DNA from: a virus
IMG/VR virus record: IMGVR_UViG_3300042398_000572
Span: 1 to 48,028 of that record
DNA length: 48,028 bases
Reading direction: 5' to 3' (one strand)
A program made the position numbers and the translations under genes. Shown here piece after piece: positions 2,128-46,045 of this stretch (position 1 is its first letter; each line of letters opens with the position of its first letter). The notes below the pieces were generated by a model, which was not told where the DNA came from, did no database searches, and saw only the letters and a program-made list of their open reading frames with translations.

Positions 2128-2130
2128 GTC

Positions 2131-3099: not shown

Positions 3100-3118
3100 A
3101 TCTTGTCCTCTTTCGGAC

Positions 3119-3126
3119 TATTTATA
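3119..3126 (-). promoter_or_regulatory. T4-type late promoter for gp13-gp17
   Basis: On the minus strand the sequence is exactly TATAAATA, the T4 late promoter consensus read by the gp55/gp33/gp45 machinery. The predicted transcription start near 3113 gives a leader of about 14 bases that still contains the gp13 ribosome binding site. The element overlaps the last codons of the upstream small fibre gene. Confidence 0.75.
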
Positions 3127-3364: not shown

Positions 3365-3365
3365 A

Positions 3366-4481: not shown

Positions 4482-4503
4482 TTTTATCTCCTAGTCCATC
4501 TAT

Positions 4504-21600: not shown

Positions 21601-24600
21601 TTGGTTTAGAGGCAAACGGATTGGATGTCATCTCAATATTGACATACGGGAGAGTGATTAGATCTCCTGTTTTATAGACATTGGTTGAATTTGCATAATC
21701 AAATGCAAGGTCAATATTTTCTAGATAGAAGAAAGGACGCATTTCTTTCTTCGATGGATCGATAGAGATGTGATATGCAGAATCGAAAACGTTACCCACG
21801 TTATGTCCTGTGAACGCATCAACAAGAATACCATTCTTAAATCTGTCGAGTCCTGCGCTGTCAGTAATCGAAAGATCGCTTGCTGCTTTTTCGAGCAGAG
21901 ACAACGAAGTATAGTATTCAAGACGGTTAATACGTTGCTCGAGAACACCAATATCGCGCATGGTGTAGCGGCGATTGTCGATAGTGCGGAATGATACACC
22001 ATAGTCTGGACGATTTACGCTCTTAGCGACATTTGGTGCAAGCGATGGATATGGAGGAATGCTGATGATTGCCAGCGACATCGCATTTTCAGGTTCTGCT
22101 GGTGTCAACGGCGCAAGCGAAGGAGTTCCGTAGATAGAACTGAAGATACCTTCAGAGTCGATGATCAGTCTGTCGGTTCTACCAAGATAATACTCAAGAT
22201 CGGTTGTGAATTGTTCAGTTGGAACAGGATTCGTGATACCAACTGCTGGTGCCGAGATAGAAGTACCTTCAGTTGGATTGGTTGTAGCACTACCAACTAC
22301 CGTAGCATTTGCCGCTGTATCAACTAATCGAACACGGAAATCTAGAGTGTCGCGAAGATCGAACGATTCACCAGTGATCGGTGATACGTAGACAGGAATA
22401 TCCTGAGTTTTAATTGTCGCCGCCGTAGCACCAGTATCATCGATCGGATAAGAATCAACAACAAAGAAAGTTCCGTCTGCTGAAGCACCGTCGTGGGTGT
22501 AGTAGTCCAACTTGATAACAAGTTTCTTGTTAACGAGAGATGGAGCAGATGGTTTCTTGATAATTTTAGCGTTACGATATTCGTTGTCGCGTTGACCGTT
22601 ATCAAGAGTGAACGAAGAAGCGATGTCAACACCAGCGGCAACTACTTCTGCATCTGTGTCAGTATTAGCGCCAATGAAGATGTTCTTAATTTGATAGACA
22701 TCAGAAAGACCAAGCGAATACGTACCACCACTTGTTGATGGGTGGGTATTTGTATTGATGATAACGTAACGGTCTTCACGAAGAACCTTAAGAACAGGTT
22801 GAGCATTAGCAGTCTGAACATTTACATAAAGTTTAACCTGCTTTGGTGCAGCGGCAAGACTTCCTGTAAGATCAATAGTGATTGATTGTGCAGAGTTCTT
22901 TGTGAAAGTTGCTTCAGCCGTAGAAAGATTAATTATAGATCCAATAGGGCGACTATCACCATCAATGGTAGCCGCTTCTTTCATCACCATAGTGAAATTG
23001 TTATTTCTGATTGTATTAGTAAACGAATCATATGGGAAAGTTTCATCACCACTTAGAGTTATGGTAACTCCACCAGTAATGCTCAATTCACCGTCGAATT
23101 CCTTGGTGTAGATAAACGAGTTATCATATACCTCATTAGGCGCAATAGTTTTTGTTGCTTTTGATGGAAGTCTGTATAGAGATCTATTGAAACTTGTTTC
23201 TTGTAAAACTGCGTTATTATTCGCATCGAGCACAACATCAGCATGCCCATCAGCCGTATCATTATAGAAGATACCGCGAACATCTTTGAAATCGCCGCTT
23301 GACATTTGAATGTCATAGAGATATAAACGATATTCTGCCGCAGCAGCACCGACAGTTCCGGATTCATATACAATCTGCCTAACACGAGCAGTACCGACTT
23401 GAGATCCTGGAGCAGATGTAGCAGAGAATGTTCCAGCGGTTACTGCGCCCGCCGCTTCGCCACGGAGACTTACGCGATCACCACCATTGAGATCCCACAG
23501 ACCGCAGAATTCATTGACTAGAATGTAGTTACCATATGCAGTGCTGATTGGCGATTCTTGAACGGAAACTGTTGTGTTTCCCTTTGGAACAACAACGTAT
23601 TCTGTTTGGAAAGTCTCGTGTTCGAAACCGCGAACATATGCTTTACCTGCTTCGAGACCAACTGCGAGTAGATCTTTACTACCACCACGTTCTGGATCAA
23701 CAGTGTTGAGTTCTCGTAAACCATTATTGCCATCTACATTAAGATGCTCTTTGATCAGAACAGGGAATTGTCTTACAGCATAGTTGCCCGATTCATCATA
23801 TGTGCGTCTTGCCAAGTTCTTGCCAAGTTCGCCGTAGATATTTGCGGTATATGTTCTCTGAATTTCACCGTTGACAATATCAACCAATTGGTTAAACGTA
23901 GAAGGAATTGTGTCGGTCGGTTCATATGCAACAAGTGTAGTTACAACTTGGTATCTATCTGCTCCTGGAGCAGCATAGTTAAAAGATCCCTGTGCAGGAT
24001 CTTGAAGAGTGCTATCATCTTCAGGTGAAACAGTATTTTCTACAACCTGAAATCCAACCTTCACAGTTGGTAGGTTTGAATACTTTGATAGTATGATTGT
24101 TTGCGCTTCGTGATTTATGAATTTCCCGTCAATATACAGAATACCATCATCGACAGTAAGCGCACAACCAAGACCCCAGTAACTGTTTGTTGGTTCTTCT
24201 TCATCATATGTATCATCTACAACAAATGTGTCACCATTCCTACCAGTATCAGTCGAAGATACAGTTAGTGTTTCACCACCATTAAAGTGGACTGCGGTAG
24301 ATTCACCATCACCGCCAGTATAACGAAGATAGAGAGTTTTTAAATTCGGTTGTTCTGCCTCGGTACCAGTTGCTACATCTAGGATTACTGCAGTCATTCC
24401 TGATGTTCCGCCTGTTACGGTATCACCAATATAGTTTACTAACGTGTCATTGTTCGCGCCTGTGTCTGCAATTTTAACGAACGCTCTATCAGAATCGAGT
24501 TTAAATTCGCATCCTTGAACGACAGAACCATTCTTAAAAACATGGTCTCCGAATCTGCCAATCTGATCTTGCAGAATGGTTTGTAGAGCAGTCAGTTCTC

Positions 24601-24718
24601 TTGCTTGGACTGCATATCCAGGTCTGAAGAGAATTCTATTGTAATTTTTTACAATCGCACCACTCAACGGGTCATAGGAATCATCATAATATGGTGAGAC
24701 ATTTAAATTCAGTGCCAT
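18629..24718 (-). CDS. Very large virion structural protein (DUF4815-type)
   Basis: 2029 residues. The N-terminus (NLNVSPYYDDSYDPLSGAIV, NYNRILFRPGYAVQARELTA, LQTILQDQIGRFGDHVFKNG) is characteristic of the DUF4815 structural proteins of marine T4-like phages. A VTGGTSG beta module lies near residue 100. At about residues 1325-1365 there is an Asn/Thr/Ile-rich stretch (TVNNTFTTVNNITNID). A polyproline hinge follows at about 1375-1410. Then come a CxxxxxC-rich segment and a DPIAQTFYVEGMPFGCYVTN domain. Two GSGY-type beta repeats lie near 1655-1720. The position after gp8 suggests it replaces T4 gp9-gp12 functions at the baseplate periphery; this is inference. A GAGAGA ribosome binding site precedes the ATG. 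Confidence 0.8.
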   Translation of the reverse strand: MALNLNVSPYYDDSYDPLSGAIVKNYNRILFRPGYAVQARELTALQTILQDQIGRFGDHVFKNGSVVQGCEFKLDSDRAFVKIADTGANNDTLVNYIGDTVTGGTSGMTAVILDVATGTEAEQPNLKTLYLRYTGGDGESTAVHFNGGETLTVSSTDTGRNGDTFVVDDTYDEEEPTNSYWGLGCALTVDDGILYIDGKFINHEAQTIILSKYSNLPTVKVGFQVVENTVSPEDDSTLQDPAQGSFNYAAPGADRYQVVTTLVAYEPTDTIPSTFNQLVDIVNGEIQRTYTANIYGELGKNLARRTYDESGNYAVRQFPVLIKEHLNVDGNNGLRELNTVDPERGGSKDLLAVGLEAGKAYVRGFEHETFQTEYVVVPKGNTTVSVQESPISTAYGNYILVNEFCGLWDLNGGDRVSLRGEAAGAVTAGTFSATSAPGSQVGTARVRQIVYESGTVGAAAAEYRLYLYDIQMSSGDFKDVRGIFYNDTADGHADVVLDANNNAVLQETSFNRSLYRLPSKATKTIAPNEVYDNSFIYTKEFDGELSITGGVTITLSGDETFPYDSFTNTIRNNNFTMVMKEAATIDGDSRPIGSIINLSTAEATFTKNSAQSITIDLTGSLAAAPKQVKLYVNVQTANAQPVLKVLREDRYVIINTNTHPSTSGGTYSLGLSDVYQIKNIFIGANTDTDAEVVAAGVDIASSFTLDNGQRDNEYRNAKIIKKPSAPSLVNKKLVIKLDYYTHDGASADGTFFVVDSYPIDDTGATAATIKTQDIPVYVSPITGESFDLRDTLDFRVRLVDTAANATVVGSATTNPTEGTSISAPAVGITNPVPTEQFTTDLEYYLGRTDRLIIDSEGIFSSIYGTPSLAPLTPAEPENAMSLAIISIPPYPSLAPNVAKSVNRPDYGVSFRTIDNRRYTMRDIGVLEQRINRLEYYTSLSLLEKAASDLSITDSAGLDRFKNGILVDAFTGHNVGNVFDSAYHISIDPSKKEMRPFFYLENIDLAFDYANSTNVYKTGDLITLPYVNIEMTSNPFASKPRNCVGELLFNYIGNMELDPPVDNWTDTAQQPDVSVNFDGNYDAWETMADAWGTQWGDWQDVVTGRTAVGQSSETVAGNTTLRGDTFLQQQTQVVTTTIEQRQTRQGVSLSVTPETQTQRTGARVTNTSIIPFMRSVTITFIAQRLKPNTRVYPFFDGIGVYEHCRPLDFDPATDIKPTDPAAFSSYADGNYGDPLITNAQGVCVGQFRIPSGTFRTGDKNFRLCDDQFNRDGFITTSSTKTWSANGLSQNVQDTVISTRVANIELNTTSDSRSVFETQRTQNRIADRTVGTVQTTVNNTFTTVNNITNIDNTVTNVTNINNTNITNITPDPVIIDRGPIVFPPSPPPPPPPPPGVSDPPAPPQPPVLPPVEIFEPEAPTPNPCEPITTCTEEQEITIGGLGGFGGLINGSIETITLPATCTTVNPCAPTPRGRDPIAQTFYVEGMPFGCYVTNLDIYFRTKSSSAPITLQIREVVNGYPGDKVIPFGEVTLNPGAVNVSENATAATTFVFPSPVYLQNNTEYCFVLLPAGNNPDYNIWVSELGENQLGTQNRISEQPHIGVLFTSANNRSWTAWQKEDIKFTLRRADFAINTVGSLVMKNMDVDFLKFDSFYDGNFEAGDTVHGFSFNISNPGSGYTNGTISHTLSGGGATTNGVVNVTISGGAVTDVTVVAPGAGYTGNPTLTISSGSGSSAVVTVTLNKGFVKQYDSLYNVGKILVTSGKFTVGDVVGTGPTYAEITEVENKQLNVLETNMGCIDHTPATISWSVAPTATGATAGGASFEGINFGQEYELSYEAQVYSYSNEQADLDGDKSLTVRAGLMTQTSTVSPVIDTRKCSIIAIANDINNVTTNEDGNNGLAASKYISRRVVLDDGQDAEDLKVYLSNKIPTGCGVKVYGRFQNATDASNFDDLDWVELDLTNSPLDSAAKSGFVEYEYTIPTANKNAGVLEYTVGSATFSGYKSFAVKVVLTSSNSSVVPRVRELRAIALQV

Positions 24719-29848: not shown

Positions 29849-31747
29849 TTATTCTTGTGAATTAGCAACTGCCGTAATCGACAGACCTGCAGGAATGTTT
29901 ACTAGAGAATTCGCGGCGCTCGTATCTAAAGTTAACACAGTATTTCTAGCAGCATATGGGAAGACTGCTGCTGTTGACACGTTCGAAGTTGAGGTCAAAT
30001 CTGTTGTTAAAATATTCGGCGCATCACCAGAGGGTTCAACATAAACTCGTATAGTATTGTCTAGAGTTGATTCTGTTCCTGAATTAATGAGAAGATCGGA
30101 AATAGTAACAACACCAGTTGTATAGTCGACAGTTCCTACATTGGATAGAACAATAACATCATCTGATGCACGTTTCATCACAAGAGTTCCAATATCACCA
30201 ACTGTCGTATCATGTTGATCAGTTATGTATACCACATAATCCTGTGTTCCGATAGTCGTATTGAAAGTCGTAGTTTTTAATGTTTCAATTTCCAATGGCC
30301 CATTAAATCTGACTACATAGTCTTCTGGAAACTCTGTGAATATCGGAATTCGTTTATGCATTAGTACTTGAATGCTCGCAGAGAAAATAGACTGCGTCGT
30401 TCCAACCACTGCCGACAGTAATTTAGAATAATAGAAGTTTTTCTGCAATTTATTGACGTTGTTCGTGAAGAAGTTTCGCACAACCGTTCCAACCTCGGAC
30501 TCTATTCTCGAGGAGGTAAGAGATGTAATTGTCTTATTATAGTTGACTGTAATGTTCAAACCGATATATGTTTCGATTGGATCTACGAATTCAGGTTGAA
30601 TAGAAACAACACTTCTTGGTCGAATAATATCTCTGGCGATAATATCTTTATCTGCTTGCGAGATAATCGATCCAGGTAAAGGTTGAATCGAAATAAACAC
30701 TTTACCGTAGATTGGAGGATTATTCTCTTCTCCACCCCACACAGAAATAGAATTAATATTTCCAAATCTAGATCTGATCAGTGTCTCATAATCGTCTGAT
30801 GTAACAACACGATTTTTAGTAGCGTTAAATTTTGGCGCATTGTAACGAATACTATCTACGCTTTCTTTTTCGCTACCACCAGTAGCAGCAGATCCCAAAT
30901 AAACGACTTTAGTCTCGCCTGTTGCAGTGAACGTTCTTGATGGCGAAAAGTTAGGAATAAAATTCGCGGCGGATCCACTGCTTACGATATAATCGATGCT
31001 GACAATATTACCAACTTGCAGTTGCTGCCCGATAACATCATCGCCAAATCTTACTTCATATAAACCAGATGGACCCTCTTCGATAAAGAACGCTCTAGTA
31101 TTTGCATCAACTTCCACAATATCATCATAAAAGTTCCATGTAGTAATTGATGTAACGGTATTTGATTGTTGCACTCTTACTCTTACAGTAGTAGTGTCAA
31201 TGTTACCATTCGGTAAAACAAACGGTCCAGATTTATTAGATTGATCAACAATAAATGTATTAGTTACTCGCTTACCTTCAATCAGTTCCATCGGGAAACT
31301 GAATCCTGTTTGTCCCGTTTCAAGAATTACTAGACCCGAAACATAATCTTCTTTCGGGAAAAACGTATATGTGTTCTTTGCCGTCTTTGCAGTAAATGGG
31401 GTGTCGCGCGATATAGTTAAACTGGTATTTGTGAATGATACAGGTGGATCAATCTGCAGCGTAATATTTGCTCGAGCAGATCTTCTCGAAGTAGGTGTAT
31501 AACCCAATGTTTTCGCAATAGATGCGACCGAGTTTCTCTTGACTGCGCTATCAATAAACATTTCATTTGCTTGAAGATGTGCGAGAGTTGCATTGTAGTG
31601 CGTATTATAGGCAAGAATGTCAAGAAGTATCGTGAGACCAGCGCCATCAAAATTATAATCCTGGAACTCCTCTTGCGATTGCATGAAGGTTTTTAGATTT
31701 TCCTTGATAGTTGCAAAATCTAATTCAGTTACATTAAGTTGAGACAT
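29849..31747 (-). CDS. 6: Baseplate wedge protein gp6
   Basis: 632 residues (T4 gp6 is 660). gp6 forms the inner ring of the baseplate and drives the change of shape on contraction; it belongs to the baseplate J-like family. The N-terminus (LNVTELDFATIKENLKTFMQ, QEEFQDYNFDGAGLTILLDI, LAYNTHYNATLAHLQANEMF, IDSAVKRNSVASIAKTLGYT) is a textbook match. Later KVFISIQPLPGSIISQADKD and RPRSVVSIQPEFVDPIETYI fit the J domain. It is followed closely by gp7 and preceded by gp25, an order conserved in contractile tails. Confidence 0.93.
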   Translation of the reverse strand: MSQLNVTELDFATIKENLKTFMQSQEEFQDYNFDGAGLTILLDILAYNTHYNATLAHLQANEMFIDSAVKRNSVASIAKTLGYTPTSRRSARANITLQIDPPVSFTNTSLTISRDTPFTAKTAKNTYTFFPKEDYVSGLVILETGQTGFSFPMELIEGKRVTNTFIVDQSNKSGPFVLPNGNIDTTTVRVRVQQSNTVTSITTWNFYDDIVEVDANTRAFFIEEGPSGLYEVRFGDDVIGQQLQVGNIVSIDYIVSSGSAANFIPNFSPSRTFTATGETKVVYLGSAATGGSEKESVDSIRYNAPKFNATKNRVVTSDDYETLIRSRFGNINSISVWGGEENNPPIYGKVFISIQPLPGSIISQADKDIIARDIIRPRSVVSIQPEFVDPIETYIGLNITVNYNKTITSLTSSRIESEVGTVVRNFFTNNVNKLQKNFYYSKLLSAVVGTTQSIFSASIQVLMHKRIPIFTEFPEDYVVRFNGPLEIETLKTTTFNTTIGTQDYVVYITDQHDTTVGDIGTLVMKRASDDVIVLSNVGTVDYTTGVVTISDLLINSGTESTLDNTIRVYVEPSGDAPNILTTDLTSTSNVSTAAVFPYAARNTVLTLDTSAANSLVNIPAGLSITAVANSQE

Positions 31748-31748
31748 C

Positions 31749-32147
31749 TTATCTACTTCTTCTTAGAACAGTTGAAAATGAAACGGGATCTGCAACCCCA
31801 ACAACATAAAAATAAATTGTCACATCAAACGCATTCTGATCAAAGAGAGGCACAACATCTATTTGTTGCGATCTAACTCGTGGTTCATACTTATTGATTA
31901 GTAACTCTAATCTCAACTTCAAGGAATTGGCAGTAACCATGTCAACGTTCTCGAACATCATACCGTAGATCGGCGATCCAATTTTAGGTTGGAATGGTCT
32001 TTCATAGAAGTTCGTAAGAACGAGAACTTTCAGTGCCTGCTTTACAGCATTAACATCAAACTTCCTCGCAACGTCACCCGTAATTGGATGCGCTGCGAAG
32101 GATAAGTCTAAATCCGAATAGATTCTGTTTACTGTTTTTGTTGTCAT
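31749..32147 (-). CDS. 25: Baseplate wedge protein gp25
   Basis: 132 residues, the same length as T4 gp25. It is the small sheath-nucleating wedge protein (lysozyme-like family by name only). Seen: IYSDLDLSFAAHPITGDVAR, VKQALKVLVLTNFYERPFQP (the conserved EPR-like core is FYERPF), KIGSPIYGMMFE and a C-terminal LINKYEPRVRSQQIDV. It sits directly upstream of gp6. No ribosome binding site is visible before the ATG, and a late promoter ends six bases upstream. Confidence 0.93.
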   Translation of the reverse strand: MTTKTVNRIYSDLDLSFAAHPITGDVARKFDVNAVKQALKVLVLTNFYERPFQPKIGSPIYGMMFENVDMVTANSLKLRLELLINKYEPRVRSQQIDVVPLFDQNAFDVTIYFYVVGVADPVSFSTVLRRSR

Positions 32148-32190: not shown

Positions 32191-35100
32191 TCATCTTAGA
32201 TGAGGAATCTGTTTGAATTTTCCTTTTGATATATATTTTCCTGACGGTCCTTCCATAGTCCCGCTCATCCCAGGACGTTGTTTTCCATCTCTGTAAACCC
32301 ACCCTACGTGAATCCATCCACTGGTTGATTTGTTTGGCGTATACTCTAGTAAGATTTGATCGTGCTTACAATTGTCAGTAATCCATTTTGCAATTTTAAT
32401 GAATTCTCTTTTATCTCGACCTCCGATACCATCAATGTCAGCTGCAGCACCATAACCATGAGCGCCTGGATCACGTCCTCCTCTATTCGGATGCGTGCTT
32501 CTATACCCACAAGACAATCTAAGTTTACCCCATTTTTCTTGTGTAGGTTCAAGAATATTAACGCACAGGCAACGCAAGTTATTAATGATATCTGCTACTG
32601 TATGCCCATACGGAGATGACCGCAATCCTCTCCATCCATCTGGGCAACCATCGCTCGGAAACACACAAAGATCTTCTAACTTGAAGTTTGGTGATAATTG
32701 AAGATTACCATTATATTTCCCAGATAATGGGGTAAGTTCTACTGATTTACCTTTTAGTATAACTATGTTACAAGATTTCGTTGCAACACCAGATTTATCT
32801 GGAATTGTTCCAGTTTCTGTTCCTGGATCGCCTGTATCATTTGAAACTGTATTGTTTCCAGCACTTGATGGATCTCCGTCTGTATTGACGCAATCTGGAT
32901 TATTGCTTTCTACTGGAGGAGTATCATCACCATCGGCATTCATAATATCATTTTCACCATCATAACCAGTAGCAACTGTATTGACAGTTCTTTCAACTGG
33001 TTGTGACGCAGATAGAGATACAGGTTTTTCTAACTCATATGTTACTGGGAGTTTCGCAGATACTGCACAGACTGCATCTTCAGCAGAACCAGCAGAACCA
33101 GCAGACGCAGGAACTGTGATAGATGCAGTGGTATTACCCTTTATATCGGTAGTATCATCTGGAGTATTATGTGTTCCCTTCAGGTTTGTAGTTCCTGCAT
33201 TCAATGTAGTAATATTTGCTGTTGTTACATCAAGAGTTGCAGTATCAATAGGCGAAGACGTAACCAGTGGTGCCTTCAAACTGATGTTTCCTGTGCTTTC
33301 TGCATTAATAGTTCCAGCAGATTTAATATTAACATTACCTGTTGATTCTTGGTTGATCATCGCAGCAGATTTAATATTAACATTACCTGTTGATTCTTGG
33401 TTGATCATCGCAGCAGTTTTCAAGTTAATATCACCAGTAGATTTAGCAAGTAATTCTGCGTCAGTGCAGAGATTCATGTTACCCGTTGAATGGTTGAAGA
33501 ACGATCCACCAGATTTGATGTGCGTATTAACCTTAGATGTCAGGTTTAACCCTGCATCTGTTGTTAGATTATATTTACCCGTAGTTTTGGTAGTGACTGC
33601 TCCTGTAATTTCAGCATCAACCTTACCTTCATTCTTAACAGAAATATCGCCTTCGTTTCTGAGGTAGATACCATCCTGCACTGAAAGACCAAGAGATCCA
33701 CCAATGTTGACATTGACATCATTATGGATGTCAAGACTGACTTTGCCGTGCATAGTTAGTGCGGTATCATTCATAATGAACACATTACATTGTCCTGCAA
33801 TGTGAACGTTGGCATTACCTTCAATTAAAACGAAACCATCTTTTTCAATAATGGAATACCCATTACCCATAATTTTATTTACTTGAGTTCCATCAGGTCC
33901 AGTCTCTGTAAAGGTTCCTGACTTGTGAGCAATATTCAAACGCTCAAATCCAGGAGTGTCATCAATTTCCAAAGCATGACCAGATTCACCAGCAAACACT
34001 TTATTATATGGATATTTTGCAGCGTATGGAGTTGCTGGTTGTTCCCACGTAGACCCAGAACGTCCTGCCATTTTGACAGCACGTTTTCTCGATGCATTTC
34101 TTGCTGCTGGTGAAGAACCTAATGACTGAGAAGATTTATCGCCCGCAGATGTTCTTGGGTCTGGGTTAATATTTTTAGAATTTACCCCAAGCGCAAGAGT
34201 ATTGGTATCTGGTTTGTTTACGTAGTCTGGTTTTGGATATTTTTTTCCAGGATCAGCAAAACCTTTTTCATCTGGTTTTTCTACGTTAGTTCCCTCGTGC
34301 GTCGGAAGAGCATTCGCAGGTGCAGAATTTACCTGAGTAGTAGGTTCCGCCGATCTTGCATTATGCTCGATACCATTATCTAGAGTGTTCGGAGAAGAAC
34401 TCTTTAATGGTGCATCAACTTTTTCTACTGTCTTAGTTTGTGTTACTGTTCCATCTGCGTCTGTTGTTGTGGTAACGGTTGTTACCGCACCAGAAGATTG
34501 AACAGTTGACACGGATGACGTAGAACTCCCGTCAGCAGAAGTTTCTGTCGCTTGTGAAATCGCAGAAGAAATAGTTTGGGTATCTGCAGTAAAGTTTGTT
34601 TGAATTTCATTCTTTGCTGATATACATGCTTCATATGTGAACGACAATCTAGATCTATCTGCTTCTTGCGCCTTAGCATCAAGTTGCTTGATGAGAGTTT
34701 CTATGTCAGCGGGATCGTCGAAAGCAATGGTTTTGTTGCTTTCAACATCATCAATTTTAGTATTCTCATTAGTGGTTTTTAACTGTTTTAGTGCTGTGAC
34801 AATACTTGGATATGTTTTGGGCAACCATTCAATTACAGTCTCAATAGCAAGTAACCAAGTTCCACCAGATCCTCTACCATGCAAAGAATCGCGTTCTGCT
34901 GATTTGATTTGATTGAGTTTAGTTGCTGCAGTAGAAGCAAGATTTGCAGAATCTGAATCGGATCCTTCAAAAAGAACTCTTCCATTCTCGACTCTATCTA
35001 CGACAGTGAGTTTAAAGGTTTCCGCACCAAGTTGTTCTAATGTAGTCACAATACCATTCTGAATAAAACTGAATGGATTTGTTACTGTTGTGGTGAAACC

Positions 35101-36246
35101 ACCTGAACCAAGAACACTAACAGATTTCTTTACCGCAGTAACAACTTTAGCAGAGATAGTTCCATTAGAAGTTAATTCATATGTGATTGTTCCATTATTA
35201 ATTGTCTTAACAATTTTCTTAGGAACTTCTTTTGCCTCTACTGGTGAATTAGATGTTTTTACAGTTTCAACAGTAGTTTGTCCAACGGGTGTTTCTGGTT
35301 CGTCTGCAGGAGGTGTTACTTCCTCATCCTTGACTACGCTTGTAGTGCCAGCAATTGGTCCAGGTGTTGCAACCTTTTCCTCTGGTAGCGCAACAGCATT
35401 GTATCCAACATCGAACCAATATTTTGCAGATACGCCACTTGTATCTGTCTTGACATTTCCTCGTAAATAATTTTGTGTGGAGTCAATATCCCAGCACAGT
35501 GATAATGCCAATGCACCAGCAAGAGTTTTCTTATCAACTGATTCAGTTATTGCACGAGATGTCAGCAATAACTGATATGTAAACTTTAGTAGATTTGAAG
35601 CAGCGAGATCTTGCAAAAATGGATTTTCTATGAATCCTCCATGCATGTCGCCATGATCTGTCAAAGCACCATCTGAATTTTTCGTTGCTAACTGCGGATG
35701 CACCGAAACATTGAATCTGGGATCGCCGCCATTAATTGGATAAATTAACATGTAGTATAGTGCATTGTTTCGAGCATTGACAGGCGCTTCAATTATTCTT
35801 GTTTGCTTAGACCTGTTGTATTTTACGAAACGACTATACCAACTTTCGTATTCCTCGTTGCCCTTCGAAGGAACAGGAATATTTGGCAGATTATTACTGA
35901 TCCAGGTAGTTAAATCGCTACCGAACATTCCGGCATCGATCAGTTGCGTTACGCCAAGTTTATATACGCCATACTCACCATCTGCATGAACAACAGTAAA
36001 TTTCCATTGATCACCAGTTTCTGTTAGTTTACCACCCTTTACTTCTAATAAATTATATCCTGGGCCGGGAGGTGTTTGTCCGAAATTATAAACCTTATTA
36101 TAATATTGTAAAGTCATCGCTTTTTGAATTTCTTTCAAAAGCGTAACTACATCATCGCGAGTCAGAGAACCGATAGTTTCTTCTTCACCCATGTTGATCG
36201 TATCAACAGTTGTGAAATACGGTGTAAATGGATCATATTTTTTCAT
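32191..36246 (-). CDS. Hub needle (gp5 C-terminal-like) with M15 peptidase domain
   Basis: 1351 residues. Residues 1-270 are an unrecognised N-terminal domain. About 270-750 is a Thr/Ser/Glu-rich linker with coiled coil. About 800-1030 is a needle-type beta-helix like the C-terminus of T4 gp5 and VgrG (FERLNIAHKSGTFTETGPDG, FVLIEGNANVHIAGQCNVFI, then repeats STGNVNIKSAAMINQE). The last 168 residues are a peptidase M15 domain: GAHGYGAAAD gives H1263 and D1270, and SGWIHVGW gives H1313 as the third zinc ligand, with E1301 as a candidate catalytic residue. It would cut peptide cross-links of peptidoglycan at the needle. The gp5 OB-fold is in the next gene. Confidence 0.82.
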   Translation of the reverse strand: MKKYDPFTPYFTTVDTINMGEEETIGSLTRDDVVTLLKEIQKAMTLQYYNKVYNFGQTPPGPGYNLLEVKGGKLTETGDQWKFTVVHADGEYGVYKLGVTQLIDAGMFGSDLTTWISNNLPNIPVPSKGNEEYESWYSRFVKYNRSKQTRIIEAPVNARNNALYYMLIYPINGGDPRFNVSVHPQLATKNSDGALTDHGDMHGGFIENPFLQDLAASNLLKFTYQLLLTSRAITESVDKKTLAGALALSLCWDIDSTQNYLRGNVKTDTSGVSAKYWFDVGYNAVALPEEKVATPGPIAGTTSVVKDEEVTPPADEPETPVGQTTVETVKTSNSPVEAKEVPKKIVKTINNGTITYELTSNGTISAKVVTAVKKSVSVLGSGGFTTTVTNPFSFIQNGIVTTLEQLGAETFKLTVVDRVENGRVLFEGSDSDSANLASTAATKLNQIKSAERDSLHGRGSGGTWLLAIETVIEWLPKTYPSIVTALKQLKTTNENTKIDDVESNKTIAFDDPADIETLIKQLDAKAQEADRSRLSFTYEACISAKNEIQTNFTADTQTISSAISQATETSADGSSTSSVSTVQSSGAVTTVTTTTDADGTVTQTKTVEKVDAPLKSSSPNTLDNGIEHNARSAEPTTQVNSAPANALPTHEGTNVEKPDEKGFADPGKKYPKPDYVNKPDTNTLALGVNSKNINPDPRTSAGDKSSQSLGSSPAARNASRKRAVKMAGRSGSTWEQPATPYAAKYPYNKVFAGESGHALEIDDTPGFERLNIAHKSGTFTETGPDGTQVNKIMGNGYSIIEKDGFVLIEGNANVHIAGQCNVFIMNDTALTMHGKVSLDIHNDVNVNIGGSLGLSVQDGIYLRNEGDISVKNEGKVDAEITGAVTTKTTGKYNLTTDAGLNLTSKVNTHIKSGGSFFNHSTGNMNLCTDAELLAKSTGDINLKTAAMINQESTGNVNIKSAAMINQESTGNVNIKSAGTINAESTGNISLKAPLVTSSPIDTATLDVTTANITTLNAGTTNLKGTHNTPDDTTDIKGNTTASITVPASAGSAGSAEDAVCAVSAKLPVTYELEKPVSLSASQPVERTVNTVATGYDGENDIMNADGDDTPPVESNNPDCVNTDGDPSSAGNNTVSNDTGDPGTETGTIPDKSGVATKSCNIVILKGKSVELTPLSGKYNGNLQLSPNFKLEDLCVFPSDGCPDGWRGLRSSPYGHTVADIINNLRCLCVNILEPTQEKWGKLRLSCGYRSTHPNRGGRDPGAHGYGAAADIDGIGGRDKREFIKIAKWITDNCKHDQILLEYTPNKSTSGWIHVGWVYRDGKQRPGMSGTMEGPSGKYISKGKFKQIPHLR
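33316..33411 (-). repeat. Perfect 48-bp tandem duplication in the needle
   Basis: Two directly adjacent identical 48-base copies (33316-33363 and 33364-33411) encode 16 residues of the beta-helix (AAMINQESTGNVNIKS). Absence of even synonymous changes points to a recent duplication that lengthens the needle by a whole repeat. Confidence 0.9.
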
Positions 36247-36249
36247 TGG

Positions 36250-37263
36250 TTATACCTTATACTTATTTCTATAGAAGGCAAATTTCTTTTTTCTATCAGC
36301 AAGACCCAGTGCTGGATCGGAACCATTGATTGCTGTAGATACGTACTCGACATCGCCCCATTTATTATTTTTACCGATTTTAGGTCGTTCTTTGTTGAAG
36401 TAGTAAATTAGTATTAATGCTGCGACTTCTTTAGTTGCTGCCAACTCTGGATTTTCCTCCAGCGGTTGGTTAAGATATTTCCCAGCTTTTCGATAATTAA
36501 TTTTCCAAGTAAGTCCCAAAAACCCTCTTCCGCGATATTTCTTTCCATCTCCTGGTTTCGTATTACCCATCATTCTTGCTCTTTTTCTGCCTTCTGGGTC
36601 TATACTTGTAATATCATATCCGCTATGAATCTTTTTCCCGTTTCTGTTTCTACCATTATTAATATAATTGTCATCGCCCACTTCTGTCATTTTCGTGAAT
36701 CCGCCTGACTCATGGGCGCATTGCGCCATTATCATAGCTTTGGCGAGTGGGGTATATCCATTTATTTTTTTAGCGCCATTAGCATCTAACCAAGATTCCA
36801 AATAAGATTCCAGATCTTTTGCATTACCCGTTGGTTGTACTACATCACCGACATCTCCGCTAGTATTATCACCATTAGAGGTGGCATTATCACCAGAAGA
36901 ACCAGATCCCTCAGTCGGAGCACAATCTGCAGACGCTAATCCTCCTGGAATGGATCCAACAGTCCCAAAGAACATAGGGTGTTGCCCGTTTTCACCATCA
37001 GCAAAAAATCCAACAACCCAAGAACCTTCTACCGCACCCGTTGGCGACCAACCAACACCAGAACTTCCCGCCGAGTTTGCAGGCATAACAGGAATTGCCC
37101 ATGGAAGATCTTCTGATGGAAGTACTTCGTTATCTTCAGTGTGATACCCAATAATTCTTACGCGACATCTACCTAGTCGTAGTGGATCGTTTCGATCCTC
37201 GACTACTCCAAACCACCAATAAAAGTTTGCATTATTGTTAGATGTAATATTGTCCATTGCCAT
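36250..37263 (-). CDS. 5: Hub protein: gp5-type OB-fold plus GH19 lysozyme domain
   Basis: 337 residues. Residues 13-107 are the OB-fold of gp5/VgrG (FYWWFGVVEDRNDPLRLGRC, RVRIIGYH, DLPWAIPVMP, GSWVVGFFADG, HPMFFGTVGS). A Gly/Ser/Asn linker follows. Residues about 147-337 form a glycoside hydrolase 19 (chitinase-like lysozyme) domain with AQCAHESGGF (E185, predicted acid), E194 and YRGRGFLGLT (243-252). T4 gp5 carries a different lysozyme at this position. The protein should sit on the gp27-like ring and cleave the glycan backbone of peptidoglycan. It ends before the needle, which is encoded separately three bases downstream. Confidence 0.85.
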   Translation of the reverse strand: MAMDNITSNNNANFYWWFGVVEDRNDPLRLGRCRVRIIGYHTEDNEVLPSEDLPWAIPVMPANSAGSSGVGWSPTGAVEGSWVVGFFADGENGQHPMFFGTVGSIPGGLASADCAPTEGSGSSGDNATSNGDNTSGDVGDVVQPTGNAKDLESYLESWLDANGAKKINGYTPLAKAMIMAQCAHESGGFTKMTEVGDDNYINNGRNRNGKKIHSGYDITSIDPEGRKRARMMGNTKPGDGKKYRGRGFLGLTWKINYRKAGKYLNQPLEENPELAATKEVAALILIYYFNKERPKIGKNNKWGDVEYVSTAINGSDPALGLADRKKKFAFYRNKYKV

Positions 37264-37266
37264 TTT

Positions 37267-39342
37267 TTAACTTCCTATCACACTATTGACACGTTCAAGA
37301 ACCTTCTGATAACTCTTTGGATGTAATCCATCATTAGAAGGAAACTCAGTTAGTTTAATTGTTTTGTCACCATATTTAGATGCGACGCCTTGAATCTTCT
37401 GCGCAATCGTAGGATCATACGGAAGAATCCAAATAACTTTCTTGGTTTGCGCTTTGATAGATTCTCTTACTGCTGTTGCATTTTCAACAGTCTTAATGTT
37501 TGGATAACCCTTATCGTTGGATCCCATAGAAATAACTGTATAATCAGAACCACCCTTGGCACTATAATTTTGTTTAATTTTATCAGTGTTCCATCCAACT
37601 GTAGCATTTGTTGTTGCATCCTTGGCAGAACTTCCTAGACCCTGCGCAATACTATCGCCGATGAACGAACCTTTACCAACTGGTTTAGTCGTCGATGTTG
37701 CTGGAGCAGTAGGATCTGTTGTAGTAGGTTCGTCCGCTGGAGCACTAGTACTATCCGATCCACCAAGTTCTTCAACTTCATAAATTTCTTGCGCATAAGA
37801 ATCTTTGGAAATTTCCAAAAACATAGTGTGGCGCAGAGGAGTTATTTGATGGTGAATCGCAGTTATCATGTAGATGCCTGTTACAAATTTATCCCAGATC
37901 AATGCTTCGGAATCCTGATTAGTTTTCTCCCCAACTGATGGGTAAAATAGTTGGATCATTCTACCGACTTCAGCGTCGGTTCTTCCTGGTACTGTTATTT
38001 GTAATCTTAATGTAGTAAGATCCATCAGGGAACTATTTCTCTGCGACACAAAATCTTCAGGACGTAAGTCTATCGAATCTTCGGTTGAATCTAAAACACC
38101 AGGATTCACCGTGGAAACAAATGGTTTACTATCCGACGAGCGCAACACATTAATTGGAAAAATCATTTTGTATTGTTTGTCGGTTTTGGTAGGATCTTCT
38201 TGATCTATATCAGGAAATTTATATGCTCCCGTCGATGGATCCAATTTTCCATCTTCCATGTGATTGTATTGCTTATAGTTGAATCCATGATCATAGTAAT
38301 ATGCGGTATATTCTTTCTTCACCATATTGAATGAATGCACAGTGCTGGCAAAGTGACCTAAATCTTGACTTTGAATAACATCCAAATTGGTAATAAATTG
38401 CAGTGCTTCTATGGTTTGGAATCCCTTAATCAATGAACCAACCGTTTGTAAATTAGATAAATTAGTATTGTATACGAAGGCTGAGTATATGTCTCCGTTT
38501 TCTAACTGATTTTTAACAAGACCTTCAATTGATGCAAAATAAAATCCCTTGGTTGTTTCATAAAACATAAACGTTGGCGATTTATTCTGACTTCCAATAG
38601 ATCGTTTCGCCAACCAATTCAGGCACTGAAACGGCGACCACATTGGCGACACGAACGTTATGTGCGAATCATGCGGAGTATCAGCGATAAACAGTTCTGT
38701 GTATGATGTCTCATCCGTCGCATCATATGTTGTATCACTAGGCGTTTCTGGTGATGTAGGAGTGGACGTTCCTGTACTAACTTGACTTTTACGAGTAAAG
38801 AATCGTTCTGCTTTTATGTTTTCTTTGAAAATATCAGAAACGATTTCGTCAGTCGTACCTTCGAATTTCTTACATATTTTTACGACGTTGTCTGCAGATG
38901 CTTCTATAGAGCAAAATAACAACTCATAATATTGCTCTCTGTCATTGTTTAGTTTACGATTCTTGACTGCATAAACCGAAAATGACTTCTGAATTTTGTT
39001 GATTGGATCGAATGTTCCAAGATTGCTTTTGGTATAACCACCCAACTCTTTCCACGGAGTCTGAACATCCATAGTCAGAACTTCATCCCCAATGATTGGT
39101 AATCTTCCAATAAGATTTAACGAATCGCGAATGAGTACTGAACCGTGCAGAGTCGGAGAAAAAATATCTTCATATAGATTTATTTCCATCAAAAATGGTT
39201 TCAAATCTAGTGCATCTTCTGATGATACTACATTTAGATCCAGTCTTGTGATGATTACGTCTCCTGGTTTGGAAATCGCATCACTGATTGGATTTGATGG
39301 TGTTGGTTTAGATTTTTCTTGACCTGTTGTCGGTTCTGCCAT
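37267..39342 (-). CDS. 27: gp27-like baseplate hub protein fused to an SGNH esterase
   Basis: 691 residues (T4 gp27 is 391). Residues about 25-520 have the hub layout (DVIITRLDLNVVSSEDALDL, MEINLYEDIFSPTLHGSVLI, then KFVTGIYMITAIHHQITPLR near the end of the domain). A Thr/Pro/Ala linker leads to a 139-residue SGNH/GDSL hydrolase: FIGDSIAQG with nucleophile S564, G583 in block II, MGSND with N609, and NDGLH giving D671 and H674. All four catalytic blocks are present. Such enzymes remove acetyl or acyl groups; in a tail hub, O-acetyl groups of peptidoglycan or surface glycans are plausible targets. It is followed by the gp5-type gene. Confidence 0.8.
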   Translation of the reverse strand: MAEPTTGQEKSKPTPSNPISDAISKPGDVIITRLDLNVVSSEDALDLKPFLMEINLYEDIFSPTLHGSVLIRDSLNLIGRLPIIGDEVLTMDVQTPWKELGGYTKSNLGTFDPINKIQKSFSVYAVKNRKLNNDREQYYELLFCSIEASADNVVKICKKFEGTTDEIVSDIFKENIKAERFFTRKSQVSTGTSTPTSPETPSDTTYDATDETSYTELFIADTPHDSHITFVSPMWSPFQCLNWLAKRSIGSQNKSPTFMFYETTKGFYFASIEGLVKNQLENGDIYSAFVYNTNLSNLQTVGSLIKGFQTIEALQFITNLDVIQSQDLGHFASTVHSFNMVKKEYTAYYYDHGFNYKQYNHMEDGKLDPSTGAYKFPDIDQEDPTKTDKQYKMIFPINVLRSSDSKPFVSTVNPGVLDSTEDSIDLRPEDFVSQRNSSLMDLTTLRLQITVPGRTDAEVGRMIQLFYPSVGEKTNQDSEALIWDKFVTGIYMITAIHHQITPLRHTMFLEISKDSYAQEIYEVEELGGSDSTSAPADEPTTTDPTAPATSTTKPVGKGSFIGDSIAQGLGSSAKDATTNATVGWNTDKIKQNYSAKGGSDYTVISMGSNDKGYPNIKTVENATAVRESIKAQTKKVIWILPYDPTIAQKIQGVASKYGDKTIKLTEFPSNDGLHPKSYQKVLERVNSVIGS

Positions 39343-39348
39343 TATTAA

Positions 39349-39861
39349 TTACCTGCTGATCAAATTCGAGTAGATATTTACGAATTCCGCCAAATATTTT
39401 GGATCCAACATCTTTATTTCTCGTTTTTCATTATTTAGATCTTCTTCGTGCTGGTAGTTGGAAACAATATATATCGCTCCACTCGCCAGATCTTCTTCGT
39501 TAAACTCTACGACTATTTTATGTTCATCATTTGTTCTACAATGGTGTGGTCGGTAAAGGTTCGTTTCTCCATATTTCTTTTTGCAGTATGCAAGTAAATC
39601 CGAAGATCCCATTGGCCACTCTCTTCGCACATCAACGATTTCATTTATAGTCATGATCACCCAATGATAGTCTGGACTGTTATAGAACTTATCCGAAACT
39701 TGCTCAATTGTGTAACCATCTGGAACAGTGATTGTCTGTAAGAAAACAACATTACTCTTAAATTTATTCAATGAGATTCTGCGAAATATGTCAGTTACAA
39801 GTGTCGCTGTATTTGGCGTAATCGTATTGACCAACAATTTCGGGAACATGGAAAACAGCAT
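39349..39861 (-). CDS. 53: Baseplate wedge protein gp53
   Basis: 170 residues (T4 gp53 is 196). This small wedge protein clamps gp6, gp7 and gp25 and has a LysM-like fold. Matching features: TVPDGYTIEQVSDKFYNSPD, YHWVIMTINEIVDVRREWPM, YGETNLYRPHHC and the C-terminal EIKMLDPKYLAEFVNIYSNL. The start lies one base after the stop of gp48. Confidence 0.9.
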   Translation of the reverse strand: MLFSMFPKLLVNTITPNTATLVTDIFRRISLNKFKSNVVFLQTITVPDGYTIEQVSDKFYNSPDYHWVIMTINEIVDVRREWPMGSSDLLAYCKKKYGETNLYRPHHCRTNDEHKIVVEFNEEDLASGAIYIVSNYQHEEDLNNEKREIKMLDPKYLAEFVNIYSNLISR

Positions 39862-39862
39862 A

Positions 39863-41107
39863 TTAGTATCCCTTCTCGATTCTGTCTGTAGTCAATGTTT
39901 CCAACTCAGAGAATTGTAATCTAATAAATGCTTCAGTTGGACATCCGTTGTCGAATGTTGTAAATCCTTCTGCGCCATAATCTATCGTCATGTCTGTCAG
40001 CACACAGTTTGATATTTTTCTTACAAACGTATTCTCTTCGCCGTTATGATAATAGATAATCATAAACTCCGACGGATATGTTTGGAATAATCCATTAGGA
40101 CTCAACGTTGGATGCATGTGCGAAGTAAACAACTCAAGTATGCCAGACTTTCCATCCGGACGACCAAAGACCATCTCTGCTTCTTCAGGACTTCGTGGTG
40201 AAAATCTATAGTCAAACGCGAACTTTCTGAAACCCATGGATCTAAATAATTGCTCTTTGTATGGGTTTTCTACTCTCTTGGAAGTCGCTTGTAGTACATT
40301 AGTAAACTGATCAAATCCAGCGATATTGGCGACACGACCTGCTTTTCTTATAAGATAGTCAGCAGTTTCTGTGCCTTCCGTGAACAATCCACCAACTGTT
40401 GCTTTACCTGATGCGAGACCACCAATAAGCGCACCAAGATCTGCAGTTTCATAGTTAGCGTTATACCCTGTTGATAGTTTGTCTGGAATGTATAGAACTA
40501 TCTCGTCGCTGCCAATTACTAAACGTTGCTCTCCTGCGATAGCACTAGCAGCAACACCTGCTAGTGCACCAGCGCCTGCACCCAAAATTCCACCCACAAG
40601 TCCTGCTGCCATTTTTACACCGATTGATACTGGTCCACCTGTAGCATTAGGATTTTTGTTTACGGTTGTTCCACCATTTTTATTTAATATCTCACCTAGA
40701 GATGTCGCAGAACCAGCGCCAGCTGCCGCACCCGCTCCGGCTCCAATTAACGCACCTGCTGCTGCCGTTGCAATTTTACCATTTTCTGGATCGACTCTGT
40801 TCTGATCTGTCTGATCAAAAATTCTACCACCGCCATTCGCCAATAATTCCTTACCTTGTTTTGTTCCTTCGCGCACGAGAGGATAAAAAACAACATAATG
40901 CGGATATTCTTCGGAGTTTCCGACGTCTAATGGATAGCGACGTTGACCGTCTTTATCCAATGGTGTTTCTAGGAAATTGAGTGGCGCAGTACCTCTACTG
41001 AACCGACTTTCCTTTTTTGGTGCAGGTGCCGCTGCGGGTGCAGCAGGTGCAGTTGCTCCTGGAGCAGGAGTTTGCGCAGGAGGTGGTGGTGCTTGGGTTA
41101 ATGCCAT
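39863..41107 (-). CDS. 48: Baseplate tail-tube cap gp48-like, with glycine-zipper insertion
   Basis: 414 residues (T4 gp48 is 364). The C-terminal third fits the gp48/gp54 tube-cap family: RSMGFRKFAFDYRFSPRSPE, SHMHPTLSPNGLFQTYPSEF, YYHNGEENTFVRKISNCVLT. The N-terminus is Ala/Pro-rich (residues 1-30). Residues about 111-191 contain two hydrophobic Gly/Ala-rich helices (AAAGALIGAGAGAAAGAG and GLVGGILGAGAGALAGVAAS) that resemble glycine zippers. gp48 caps the baseplate hub and starts the tail tube. It is the first gene of the long minus-strand baseplate unit and has an exact late promoter upstream. Confidence 0.8.
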   Translation of the reverse strand: MALTQAPPPPAQTPAPGATAPAAPAAAPAPKKESRFSRGTAPLNFLETPLDKDGQRRYPLDVGNSEEYPHYVVFYPLVREGTKQGKELLANGGGRIFDQTDQNRVDPENGKIATAAAGALIGAGAGAAAGAGSATSLGEILNKNGGTTVNKNPNATGGPVSIGVKMAAGLVGGILGAGAGALAGVAASAIAGEQRLVIGSDEIVLYIPDKLSTGYNANYETADLGALIGGLASGKATVGGLFTEGTETADYLIRKAGRVANIAGFDQFTNVLQATSKRVENPYKEQLFRSMGFRKFAFDYRFSPRSPEEAEMVFGRPDGKSGILELFTSHMHPTLSPNGLFQTYPSEFMIIYYHNGEENTFVRKISNCVLTDMTIDYGAEGFTTFDNGCPTEAFIRLQFSELETLTTDRIEKGY

Positions 41108-43670: not shown

Positions 43671-43817
43671 ATGAATTTCTACAAAATCAACTTTATTTTA
43701 ATGCATGAACATAAATATAGTTTGACCGAATTAGAGAATATGATGCCGTGGGAGAGGGAAGTTTACATAGGGATGCTAATGGCGCATCTTAAAAAGAAAG
43801 CAGAGAATCAGGACTAA
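43671..43817 (+). CDS. Small tail chaperone extension ORF (48 residues)
   Basis: Reads MNFYKINFILMHEHKYSLTE followed by LENMMPWEREVYIGMLMAHL and a Lys-rich end. The PWEREVY motif with a preceding helix is the kind seen at the C-terminus of tail assembly chaperone fusions. It has an ATG at 43671 but no ribosome binding site, and it is fully open in the -1 frame relative to the upstream gene from 43644, so it is probably expressed as the C-terminal part of a gp26 fusion. Independent translation by reinitiation is the alternative. Its stop overlaps the tape measure ATG (TAATG). Confidence 0.75.
   Translation: MNFYKINFILMHEHKYSLTELENMMPWEREVYIGMLMAHLKKKAENQD
43710..43717 (+). promoter_or_regulatory. 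Possible late promoter before the tape measure gene
   Basis: CATAAATA on the plus strand, 7 of 8 matches to the late consensus, about 95 bases before the tape measure ATG and inside the chaperone extension ORF. A weak match; it may be chance. Confidence 0.35.
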
Positions 43818-46045
43818 TGGAACAGCAAACTAAAGGTATCGGCAAGGAAAGTCAACTTTCTAAGATTGCTGCTGCAGTAAATCCAGGTTCGATGGCAGAG
43901 GCAAATCCTACTGCTACACAATCTATGATCTCAACTTTCATGCAAACTTTTGAGTCTTCAGCATTAGAAATGCGCGAAGAAACAAATGATGATCAAAAAG
44001 CATTGATCAAAACAATGATAGATGAGATCACCAAGTTACAAACTAAAAACATGAGTGAGTTTGAGAAGGCAATCGGTAAGATTGTTAGTATCACAAAGGA
44101 TCTACAAAAATCTGACAATCCGATCTTACAAAAACTCGGTAAAGAGATGGAAGAAAAATCTCGCGAGGAAGTAGTAAAGGCATCTGGGTATACATTAACT
44201 GGTGAAAAAGATACATTTTTAAATCGTCTTGGTCGTTCAGTTGGTATGAACACCGAAGAAGAACCGTTAGAAAAGAATAAACAAGGTATCGGTAAACTCG
44301 CCAAAGGATTCGGGTCCAGCATTGGTGGAACTCTAAAACGTGGATTTAATATCGCCGTAGGAAGAGAAGCACCTGAAGGCAGTTTCGCTGATAGTGTGTT
44401 TACTTCGGATGAACAAAAACGCGAACGCTTGATGAGCAGAATAGATTCTGAGACGAACAAAACTCAATCTGTATCTGCATCTGATACATTTAAGAAAGTT
44501 ATTGAAGAATACTTTAAAGAAGAAAAGCAGAAGTCAGATTCATCAGGAAAAGAAAAAAGAAATCCTTCGTCGGTTAACAGCGAGGGACAAGAAGATACAG
44601 CAGGTATCTCCAAAGATGCAACAATCGAAGCATTACAAAAAACTGCGGATTCTAATGTTTTAATACAAGAGTATTCTAATACCACTCAAGAAAAGACAAC
44701 TGAAACAGTCGAAGTATTGAAAGAAATACTAGAAGTGATTAAGAGAATGTCATCTAACCTCCAAAGTGGCGGTGGCGACGGTGGTGGCGATGATGATGAT
44801 GGTGGTATGGATATCGATCTCCCAGATAGAAGACGCAGACCAAGAAGATCCAGAGGAAGATTGCGTGCTCGCGCACGTATGGCCAGTCGCGCTGTCAAAG
44901 GTAGCAGAGCAGGAGGTATTGTTCGCGGATTAGTGAATGGTGCCCGATCAATAAGTGGACAGGGTATAAACGCAATTACATCAGGCGCCAGAGCAATAAC
45001 AGCGCCGATGGCACTTGCGGGAACTGCCGCAATTGCTGCAACAGGTTCGATTCTTTATGGTGTAGATAAGTTTATCAAGGGCACAAATATTGGAGCGAGA
45101 AAAGAGCAAGAAGAAGGGACTGCTAAATTTGGTTTAACTGGTAATAACACGGACGGGTTTTTTATTAATGGAAAACCAGCTGGTAAGTATAAAGATCTAC
45201 CAGAATATTATCAGAAGGTCGCCGATGGTTATGGTGCCAATAGCAGAGGTGGCGCAGCAGAACGTGCACGCGAATATGTTAAAACTCATAATCCTGATGG
45301 CAGTAAAAAGACTGAGAAAAAACCTGCTGCTGTTGAAAAGGATAAGAAAAAAACCGATGCCAAGGTAACTCCAAAGACACCAGCAAAACAAGTAACAACT
45401 CCATCACCAGCAAAACAAGTAACAACTCCATCACCAGCAAAACAAGTAACAACTCCAGATGAAATCGTAGTTACTGCTCCGAAAAAGAAAGCAGAAGTCG
45501 AGAAACCAAAGCAGGAAAAATCAACTGCGACTTCTACTGTCAAGGAAGCAACAGAACCAAAGAAGAAACAGGATCCAGCGCCTTCTTTAGATGCAGTTGA
45601 TAAATCCATTAAAGGTAAAGTTGCCGAGATAGATCCTAAAGGTCGCTGGGCGAAACTCAACGATGGTAAAATTGTAGATCCTGATTTTCCTAATGATGCT
45701 GATTCAAATAATTCTGCAGCGGCGGCATATAAGTTGAGTCAGAAAGCAGGTAAGGTCGAAGGTAAAGATAATAAAACAGGCAATCAAACAGGTGATCTAA
45801 TGTCACCAAAGAAAAAAACAATTGGTAAAACTGAAACAGGTAAGAACATAGATGGCGCTCTAATTGAGCAAGGCACTGCAGAAACTAAAGACAAGGTGCA
45901 AGTAAATGTCCCACCGCCAACAGTGATCAATCAAGGTGGTGGTGAACAAGCACAACCACAAATAACTTTCCCAGGAGGCGTAGGAAACGTTAGAACAAAT
46001 GATTCATCGTGGCAACGATTCCAAGATAGAAGAGCAGTCGGATAA
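43817..46045 (+). CDS. 29: Probable tape measure protein (gp29-like)
   Basis: 742 residues (T4 gp29 is 590). Evidence is position after the tail chaperone, length and composition: long helical stretches at the N-terminus (MIDEITKLQTKNMSEFEKAI), then GGGDGGGDDDDGGMDID at about 317-333, an Arg-rich patch DRRRRPRRSRGRLRARARMA, and a hydrophobic segment at about 394-417 (APMALAGTAAIAATGSILYG) that could cross a membrane. A Lys/Thr/Pro-rich linker with three repeats follows, and the end is NDSSWQRFQDRRAVG. It would set tail length and enter the host envelope on ejection. Direct similarity to T4 gp29 is not evident, so the name is by context. Confidence 0.72.
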   Translation: MEQQTKGIGKESQLSKIAAAVNPGSMAEANPTATQSMISTFMQTFESSALEMREETNDDQKALIKTMIDEITKLQTKNMSEFEKAIGKIVSITKDLQKSDNPILQKLGKEMEEKSREEVVKASGYTLTGEKDTFLNRLGRSVGMNTEEEPLEKNKQGIGKLAKGFGSSIGGTLKRGFNIAVGREAPEGSFADSVFTSDEQKRERLMSRIDSETNKTQSVSASDTFKKVIEEYFKEEKQKSDSSGKEKRNPSSVNSEGQEDTAGISKDATIEALQKTADSNVLIQEYSNTTQEKTTETVEVLKEILEVIKRMSSNLQSGGGDGGGDDDDGGMDIDLPDRRRRPRRSRGRLRARARMASRAVKGSRAGGIVRGLVNGARSISGQGINAITSGARAITAPMALAGTAAIAATGSILYGVDKFIKGTNIGARKEQEEGTAKFGLTGNNTDGFFINGKPAGKYKDLPEYYQKVADGYGANSRGGAAERAREYVKTHNPDGSKKTEKKPAAVEKDKKKTDAKVTPKTPAKQVTTPSPAKQVTTPSPAKQVTTPDEIVVTAPKKKAEVEKPKQEKSTATSTVKEATEPKKKQDPAPSLDAVDKSIKGKVAEIDPKGRWAKLNDGKIVDPDFPNDADSNNSAAAAYKLSQKAGKVEGKDNKTGNQTGDLMSPKKKTIGKTETGKNIDGALIEQGTAETKDKVQVNVPPPTVINQGGGEQAQPQITFPGGVGNVRTNDSSWQRFQDRRAVG
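45380..45457 (+). repeat. 27-bp tandem repeats in the tape measure gene
   Basis: Three head-to-tail copies (45380, 45407, 45434; the third is 24 bases long) encode PAKQVTTPS units. They are identical at the DNA level, so the array is recent and could vary in copy number. Confidence 0.9.

Follow-up and report, generated by a model that had tools for sequence, protein, structure and literature searches.

A T4-type baseplate hub with a split gp5 and three predicted envelope hydrolase domains in an IMG/VR virus record

We characterized the baseplate hub genes of a virus to which no host is assigned, using the 48,028-base IMG/VR record IMGVR_UViG_3300042398_000572, the whole of which is referred to here as the window. 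Three consecutive genes probably encode a central hub of the T4 type, with gp5 divided between two proteins and with three flexible tethers that carry predicted enzymes into the host envelope: an SGNH/GDSL esterase on the protein at the gp27 position, a GH19 glycan hydrolase beside the gp5 OB domain and an M15 zinc peptidase at the end of the needle. An earlier note on this DNA had proposed three different enzyme domains on these adjacent hub genes. The proposal is upheld by a survey of relatives, in which the full trio (esterase, glycan hydrolase and M15) was found on 24 contigs, and by dN/dS ratios well below 1. Sequence comparison adds to that note the division of gp5 itself, an apparently dead domain at the lysozyme position and the swapping of modules. 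Fifty-two of the relatives were fetched with the OB-GH19 protein, and the hub core retrieved 80 loci, on contigs partly shared between the two sets; individual loci are cited by L numbers.

The split gp5 and the terminal domains

All three open reading frames (ORFs) are intact and lie in succession on the minus strand, to which the coordinates of these genes and their domains refer, with gaps of 3 nt. They encode the 691-aa hub protein with its C-terminal predicted esterase domain (37267..39342), which sits between gp53 and the gp5 OB gene; the first half of the split gp5, a 337-aa protein with the OB domain and GH19 (36250..37263); and the second half, the 1351-aa needle protein (32191..36246). 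We read gp5 as split in two because PHROG profile matches divide between these proteins, phrog_430 positions 7-125 corresponding to residues 3-119 of the OB-GH19 protein and positions 312-549 to residues 722-995 of the needle protein. The gp5 N-terminal OB domain (36928..37257) is recognized by Gp5_OB (1.4e-13) and T4 gp5 (4.8e-18), and the gp5C triple beta-helix that makes up the needle (33439..34086) by T4 gp5 (1.3e-16) and phrog_430 (2.4e-43). A gp5-type linker (GFADPGKKYP...; 34117..34308) was also identified in the needle protein, where residues 647-710 align with Gp5_OB profile positions 65-126. The earlier description of a gp5-type OB protein and a separate needle was right about the type of both, but missed that gp5 itself is divided over them.

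The hub protein matches the tail protein profile phrog_350 (E 1.9e-72), which together with our own profile delimits a gp27-like core at residues ~20-522 (37777..39285). Since a hub sequence profile reached no gp27 in the PDB, the label of gp27-like given in the earlier note is kept by virtue of gene order and phrog_350, and not of a structural match. A Ser/Thr/Pro/Ala linker (37675..37776), the point at which alignments and identity profiles place the loss or exchange of the domain in relatives, joins the core to the SGNH/GDSL domain of ~135 aa (residues ~557-691; 37270..37674). The four catalytic blocks previously claimed for this domain are present: Ser564 in GDS (block I), Gly583 (block II), Asn609 in GxND (block III) and Asp671 and His674 in DxxH (block V). 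Among related loci with this domain type, SGNH-A, the Ser, Gly and Asn were each retained in 26/26 and DxxH in 25/26. One gp27-like gene (L013:2075-4036) has a frameshift inside SGNH with loss of the DxxH block, which could reflect an error in sequencing or else have arisen recently as a true loss. Lipase_GDSL_2 of Pfam scored 23.5 bits against the window domain (E 8.7e-5), below the gathering threshold of 32.9, and all 9 aligned members matched this family (best E 1.9e-5), with DUF459, which we take to be an SGNH-clan family, in second place. Because the catalytic blocks are present, the domain is filed as a predicted SGNH/GDSL hydrolase despite its sub-threshold score. Two unrelated stand-alone homologues with 31-33% identity retain exactly these blocks; one is in a podovirus, with an annotated lysozyme two genes away and an annotated peptidase three. 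Before these two homologues were added to it, the profile had no SGNH match in the PDB. The widened profile found only acyltransferases, a CE2 esterase, a lysophospholipase-like esterase and a lipase (E<=5), the best being the acyltransferase-labelled 5ug1/5ufy (E 0.01), presumably OatA-type peptidoglycan O-acetyltransferase domains.

The tail of the OB protein (residues ~150-337; 36253..36816) qualifies as a predicted GH19 glycan hydrolase by Pfam, PHROG and alignment. Its Pfam score of 25.6 bits is barely over the cut-off of 25.5, and phmmer matches it over the whole domain to the SPN1S-type endolysin 4ok7 (E 1e-15). Both catalytic residues named in the earlier note, Glu185 and Glu194, align with those of 4ok7 and are retained in 42/42 related GH19 loci. 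Residues ~1169-1339 of the needle protein (32230..32742) are classed as a predicted peptidase M15. The window protein has no M15 match in Pfam at E<1. Its M15 region matches a PHROG endolysin (E 9.6e-20), the corresponding profile can be aligned, zinc site included, with hedgehog N domains (E 0.01) and at E 0.27 with the muramoyl-pentapeptide carboxypeptidase 1lbu, and the related gp5 in L131 passes Pfam Peptidase_M15_3 (E 1.3e-7). The three zinc ligands reported before, H1263, D1270 and H1313, are invariant together with the predicted catalytic E1301 across 17 diverse M15 sequences, and the motif as a whole (HxxxxxxD ... E ... WxH) is kept in 39/39 related loci. For none of the three domains did the relatives prove to have lost catalytic residues throughout. 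Chance occurrence of the SGNH, GH19 and M15 motifs was considered and rejected, as the motifs are invariant while adjacent positions vary. A search of NCBIfam gave zero matches. Elsewhere in the needle protein, residues ~330-640 (window 34330-35250) hold no recognized domain, and the needle of L007 (L007:11018-16015) reaches 1666 aa through an N-terminal-domain insertion of ~300 residues with repeated segments (KRISTDPADF...).

The lysozyme-position domain of the needle

Residues ~24-286 of the needle protein (35389..36177) are homologous to the domain that lies between OB and helix, where T4 has its lysozyme, in gp5 of L130-L132, L141 and L144, and a domain of the same family occurs in the needle of phiM9 and RL2RES. 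When the window domain was compared by hhalign with the Glu-bearing domain, probabilities of 96.6% and 97.2% were obtained, the latter spanning only the C-terminal 85 columns. The Glu, which is present in phiM9, RL2RES, Y68, N34, L130 and L131, precedes a GYxGxYQ motif (KESSGDY, RESSQNY, KKESTNNY), and MAFFT aligns it to Met44 of the window protein. A gap-free match of 25 residues found by eye, between IGSLTRDDVVTLLKEIQKAMTLQYY of the window and VGPLAEADWQKLRDWLKQKESSGDY of phiM9, agrees with this placement. Position 44 is M, L, I or V in 100/100 window-type sequences and never Glu, although the same contigs recur many times among these loci as overlapping copies, so that independent cases are fewer. 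From these alignments, the needle N-terminal domain is probably a dead enzyme that has been retained as a scaffold. They also suggest a route by which a virion lysozyme can be outsourced to a neighbouring protein with the old domain kept as scaffold.

Module exchange, co-occurrence and selection

The relatives differ in what hangs from each hub protein. The hub core ends in nothing, in SGNH-A or in a different domain, SGNH-B, which had no match in the phages collection, occurs on four IMG/VR contigs only and keeps its catalytic motifs in 4/4 sequences. The OB domain is followed by GH19, a SleB-like Hydrolase_2 (with weak Pfam support), Phage_lysozyme2, GH24 or a VgrG3-like lysozyme. The needle ends in M15 in nearly all relatives, including diverged lineages in which the domain is 24-40% identical to that of the window; the distant L052 group has no M15. 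At L120:1621-2985 the OB protein continues into a domain that is hit by Pfam T6SS_VgrG3-like_C (7e-27), the phage equivalent of a domain of type VI secretion spikes. An alternative gp5 split was seen at L128:12126-14945, L133:11765-14773 and L143:11620-14466, where GH19 is at the needle N-terminus and the OB protein has no recognized enzyme.

Nucleotide identity to the window changes sharply at the linkers, which indicates module exchange. In L006 it is 82% in the hub core, 93-94% in SGNH and as high as 98% in GH19. In L007 the helix stands at 85-94% and M15 at 58-62%, the M15 having been replaced next to a helix that is 96-97% identical. L019 is without SGNH, the flanks of the gap being 90-93% identical to the window at the nucleotide level and the gp27 core 90% identical, and it retains GH19 and M15. 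L044 and L046 have Phage_lysozyme2 in place of GH19 and retain SGNH. Conversely, SGNH-A domains that are 83% identical are found on hubs whose gp27 cores are 51% identical. Each tether is an exchangeable slot, in which replacement by a non-homologous domain tends to preserve the class of enzyme. The dN/dS against the window was 0.06-0.07 for SGNH, 0.14-0.42 for GH19 and, where dS was measurable, 0.04-0.09 for M15. As these values are well below 1, the sequences indicate that all three domains are under purifying selection.

The trio had been described before as a cell wall dismantling unit. This description is partly borne out: the glycan hydrolase and M15 are a stable pair whose joint presence is near-universal among relatives, but the SGNH domain is an accessory since it is absent from close relatives such as L019, and a fixed unit is not supported. 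Among the relatives are T4-type hubs that are nearly identical and differ by one enzyme each, a series provided by nature in which the role of virion-associated hydrolases in entry, and their possible influence on host range, become directly testable. By virtue of their small size, diversity and modularity, the domains also offer new wall-active enzymes.

Known hubs, proposed mechanism and alternative explanations

T4 gp5 is one chain that is cleaved after synthesis and bears OB, lysozyme and helix together. The window resembles the T4 gp27-gp5 hub in that the gp5 OB domain and triple beta-helix are recognizable by sequence, the order of gp53, gp27 position, gp5, gp25 and gp6 is shared, and a glycan hydrolase lies beside the OB domain. 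It differs in having gp5 spread over a pair of genes, GH19 as the enzyme and two further enzymes besides, where T4 has a single T4L-like lysozyme inside gp5 (PMC7650644). The gp5 of Synechococcus phage BUCT-ZZ01 has OB, GH19, helix and M15 in identical order, but on a single chain of ~940 aa in which no dead lysozyme-position domain was detected, and its gp27 neighbour has no SGNH. Methylophilales phage Melnitz, which with BUCT-ZZ01 was the closest isolate identified, shares the split gp5 and a needle ending in M15; its gp27-position protein is without SGNH and its OB protein carries a VanY-type peptidase instead of a glycan hydrolase. The Pootjesviridae phiM9 and RL2RES likewise have a split gp5, and their needle has a homologue of the window's N-terminal needle domain in which the Glu is kept. 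In phiM9 an annotated SGNH hydrolase gene (L152, 1-52) lies two genes from the gp5 gene (1969-4545).

Outside the T4 type, the gp27-like trimer of Staphylococcus phages 80-alpha and phi11 (Tal; gp59 and gp44, respectively) bears an SGNH/GDSL domain at its C-terminus, and a second tail-tip protein (Hyd; gp67 and gp49) has wall-degrading domains (PMC7048315, PMC5380687). The Tal C-terminal domain and Hyd are unresolved in the 80-alpha baseplate map, which provides a precedent for flexible tethers (PMC7048315). These are siphoviruses of a Gram-positive host, their Tal SGNH is ~240 aa as against ~135, and the enzymes are on two proteins with no split gp5 needle. In view of Tal with its second muralytic protein, and of GH19 and M15 on the one gp5 of BUCT-ZZ01, such a trio of chemistries is not confined to the present tail tip. 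The building blocks and the principle are already known from BUCT-ZZ01, Melnitz and 80-alpha/phi11; what is new, as judged from sequence, is that the hub offers three slots whose swaps mostly preserve the enzyme class, and that the lysozyme has probably been outsourced. A literature search, mostly of open-access papers, found no description of the trio or its parts in a T4-type hub. In their catalytic motifs the window domains resemble known SGNH/GDSL hydrolases, GH19 endolysins (4ok7) and peptidase M15, but unlike secreted enzymes or lysis endolysins they are placed on virion hub proteins by gene context. An assignment of the three ORFs as lysis endolysins was rejected on account of their position within the baseplate gene cluster and their fusion to hub domains.

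Were the hub a trimer like that of T4, each enzyme would be expected in three copies. Sheath contraction would drive the needle through the outer membrane, and M15 at its end would be the first to enter the periplasm, where it would cleave stem peptides or cross-links. GH19, hung from the OB collar, would follow and cut glycan strands. SGNH, hung from the gp27-like ring nearer the tube, would strip acyl (most plausibly acetyl) groups either from peptidoglycan or from surface glycans by which the tube or the other enzymes are hindered. O-acetylation hinders lysozyme-type enzymes; therefore, acting on O-acetyl groups of peptidoglycan, SGNH would clear the way for the glycosidase, and if it acts on acyl groups of surface glycans it would do so earlier. 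The lysozyme-position domain of the needle would then be a structural adaptor whose job has moved to the exchangeable enzyme of the OB protein. It is conceivable, and we put this forward tentatively, that the hub combines an inert lysozyme scaffold with three interchangeable tethers, one for each type of bond (acyl ester, glycan and peptide). If true, phages could re-arm themselves against different cell walls by exchanging one cassette at a time.

Several results count against the proposed mechanism. Neither the needle N-terminal domain nor its Glu-bearing relatives found a family or entry in Pfam and PDB searches, an AlphaFold model of the needle domain (pTM 0.78) had no significant fold match in the PDB by Foldseek, and the lost Glu is presumed to have been catalytic from likeness to lysozyme-like domains. 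Matches of the same model to the lytic transglycosylase MltE (E 7-9) were too weak to be counted as evidence. AlphaFold of the SGNH domain from 9 sequences gave alternating strands and helices at pLDDT 51, and Foldseek matches of this low-confidence model, among them GDSL lipase 4m8k and the Oskar OSK domain, were none of them significant; support for the SGNH fold consists of motifs and sub-threshold profile scores. Being optional, SGNH cannot be essential. The rule of one enzyme class per slot is not absolute, given VanY in the OB slot of Melnitz, and the proposed order of arrival follows the geometry of T4.

The SGNH domain may act outside the wall, deacylating O-antigen, capsule or exopolysaccharide for baseplate seating or tube passage and leaving peptidoglycan to GH19 and M15, an explanation that we consider a substantial possibility though not the favoured one. 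SGNH hangs from the part of the hub that is farthest from the needle tip in the T4 layout, its presence or absence between close relatives (window and L019) is as expected of a host-surface trait, and deacetylating enzymes are known on phage tailspikes (PMC5380687). Its acyltransferase-labelled PDB relatives and the lysozyme and peptidase genes near its podovirus homologue speak for the wall instead. The tethered domains could also be independent host-range cassettes, each advantageous on some hosts, rather than a co-adapted trio, which we regard as possible but somewhat doubtful. The one-by-one changes in L019 (SGNH missing), L044/L046 (GH19 to Phage_lysozyme2) and L007 (M15 replaced) would be accounted for, and phage tail and lysis proteins commonly shuffle domains (PMC10684548). 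Replacement that mostly keeps the class in each slot nevertheless indicates a division of labour, and the glycosidase and M15 nearly always co-occur. It seems improbable that at least one of the terminal domains has been retained for binding affinity instead of catalysis. The needle N-terminal domain suggests that a hydrolase-like domain, apparently dead, has persisted in this hub, and the window Pfam scores are sub-cut-off for SGNH and absent for M15; yet few positions are invariant in the SGNH and M15 alignments with distant members, the catalytic residues belong to those few, and they are kept nearly everywhere.

ORF calls and PHROG profiles place the hub genes in a T4-type baseplate gene cluster, which also contains a gp48/54-like tail tube cap (39863-41107), gp53 (39349-39861), gp25 (31749-32147), gp6 (29849-31747) and further wedge proteins. 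The frequency of promoter-like and terminator-like sites in this region was close to that in shuffled sequence. Large ORFs at window 13815-15692 (625 aa) and 43817-46045 (742 aa) had no PHROG match at E<0.001, and an ORF of 2029 aa at window 18629-24718 adjoins the baseplate genes.

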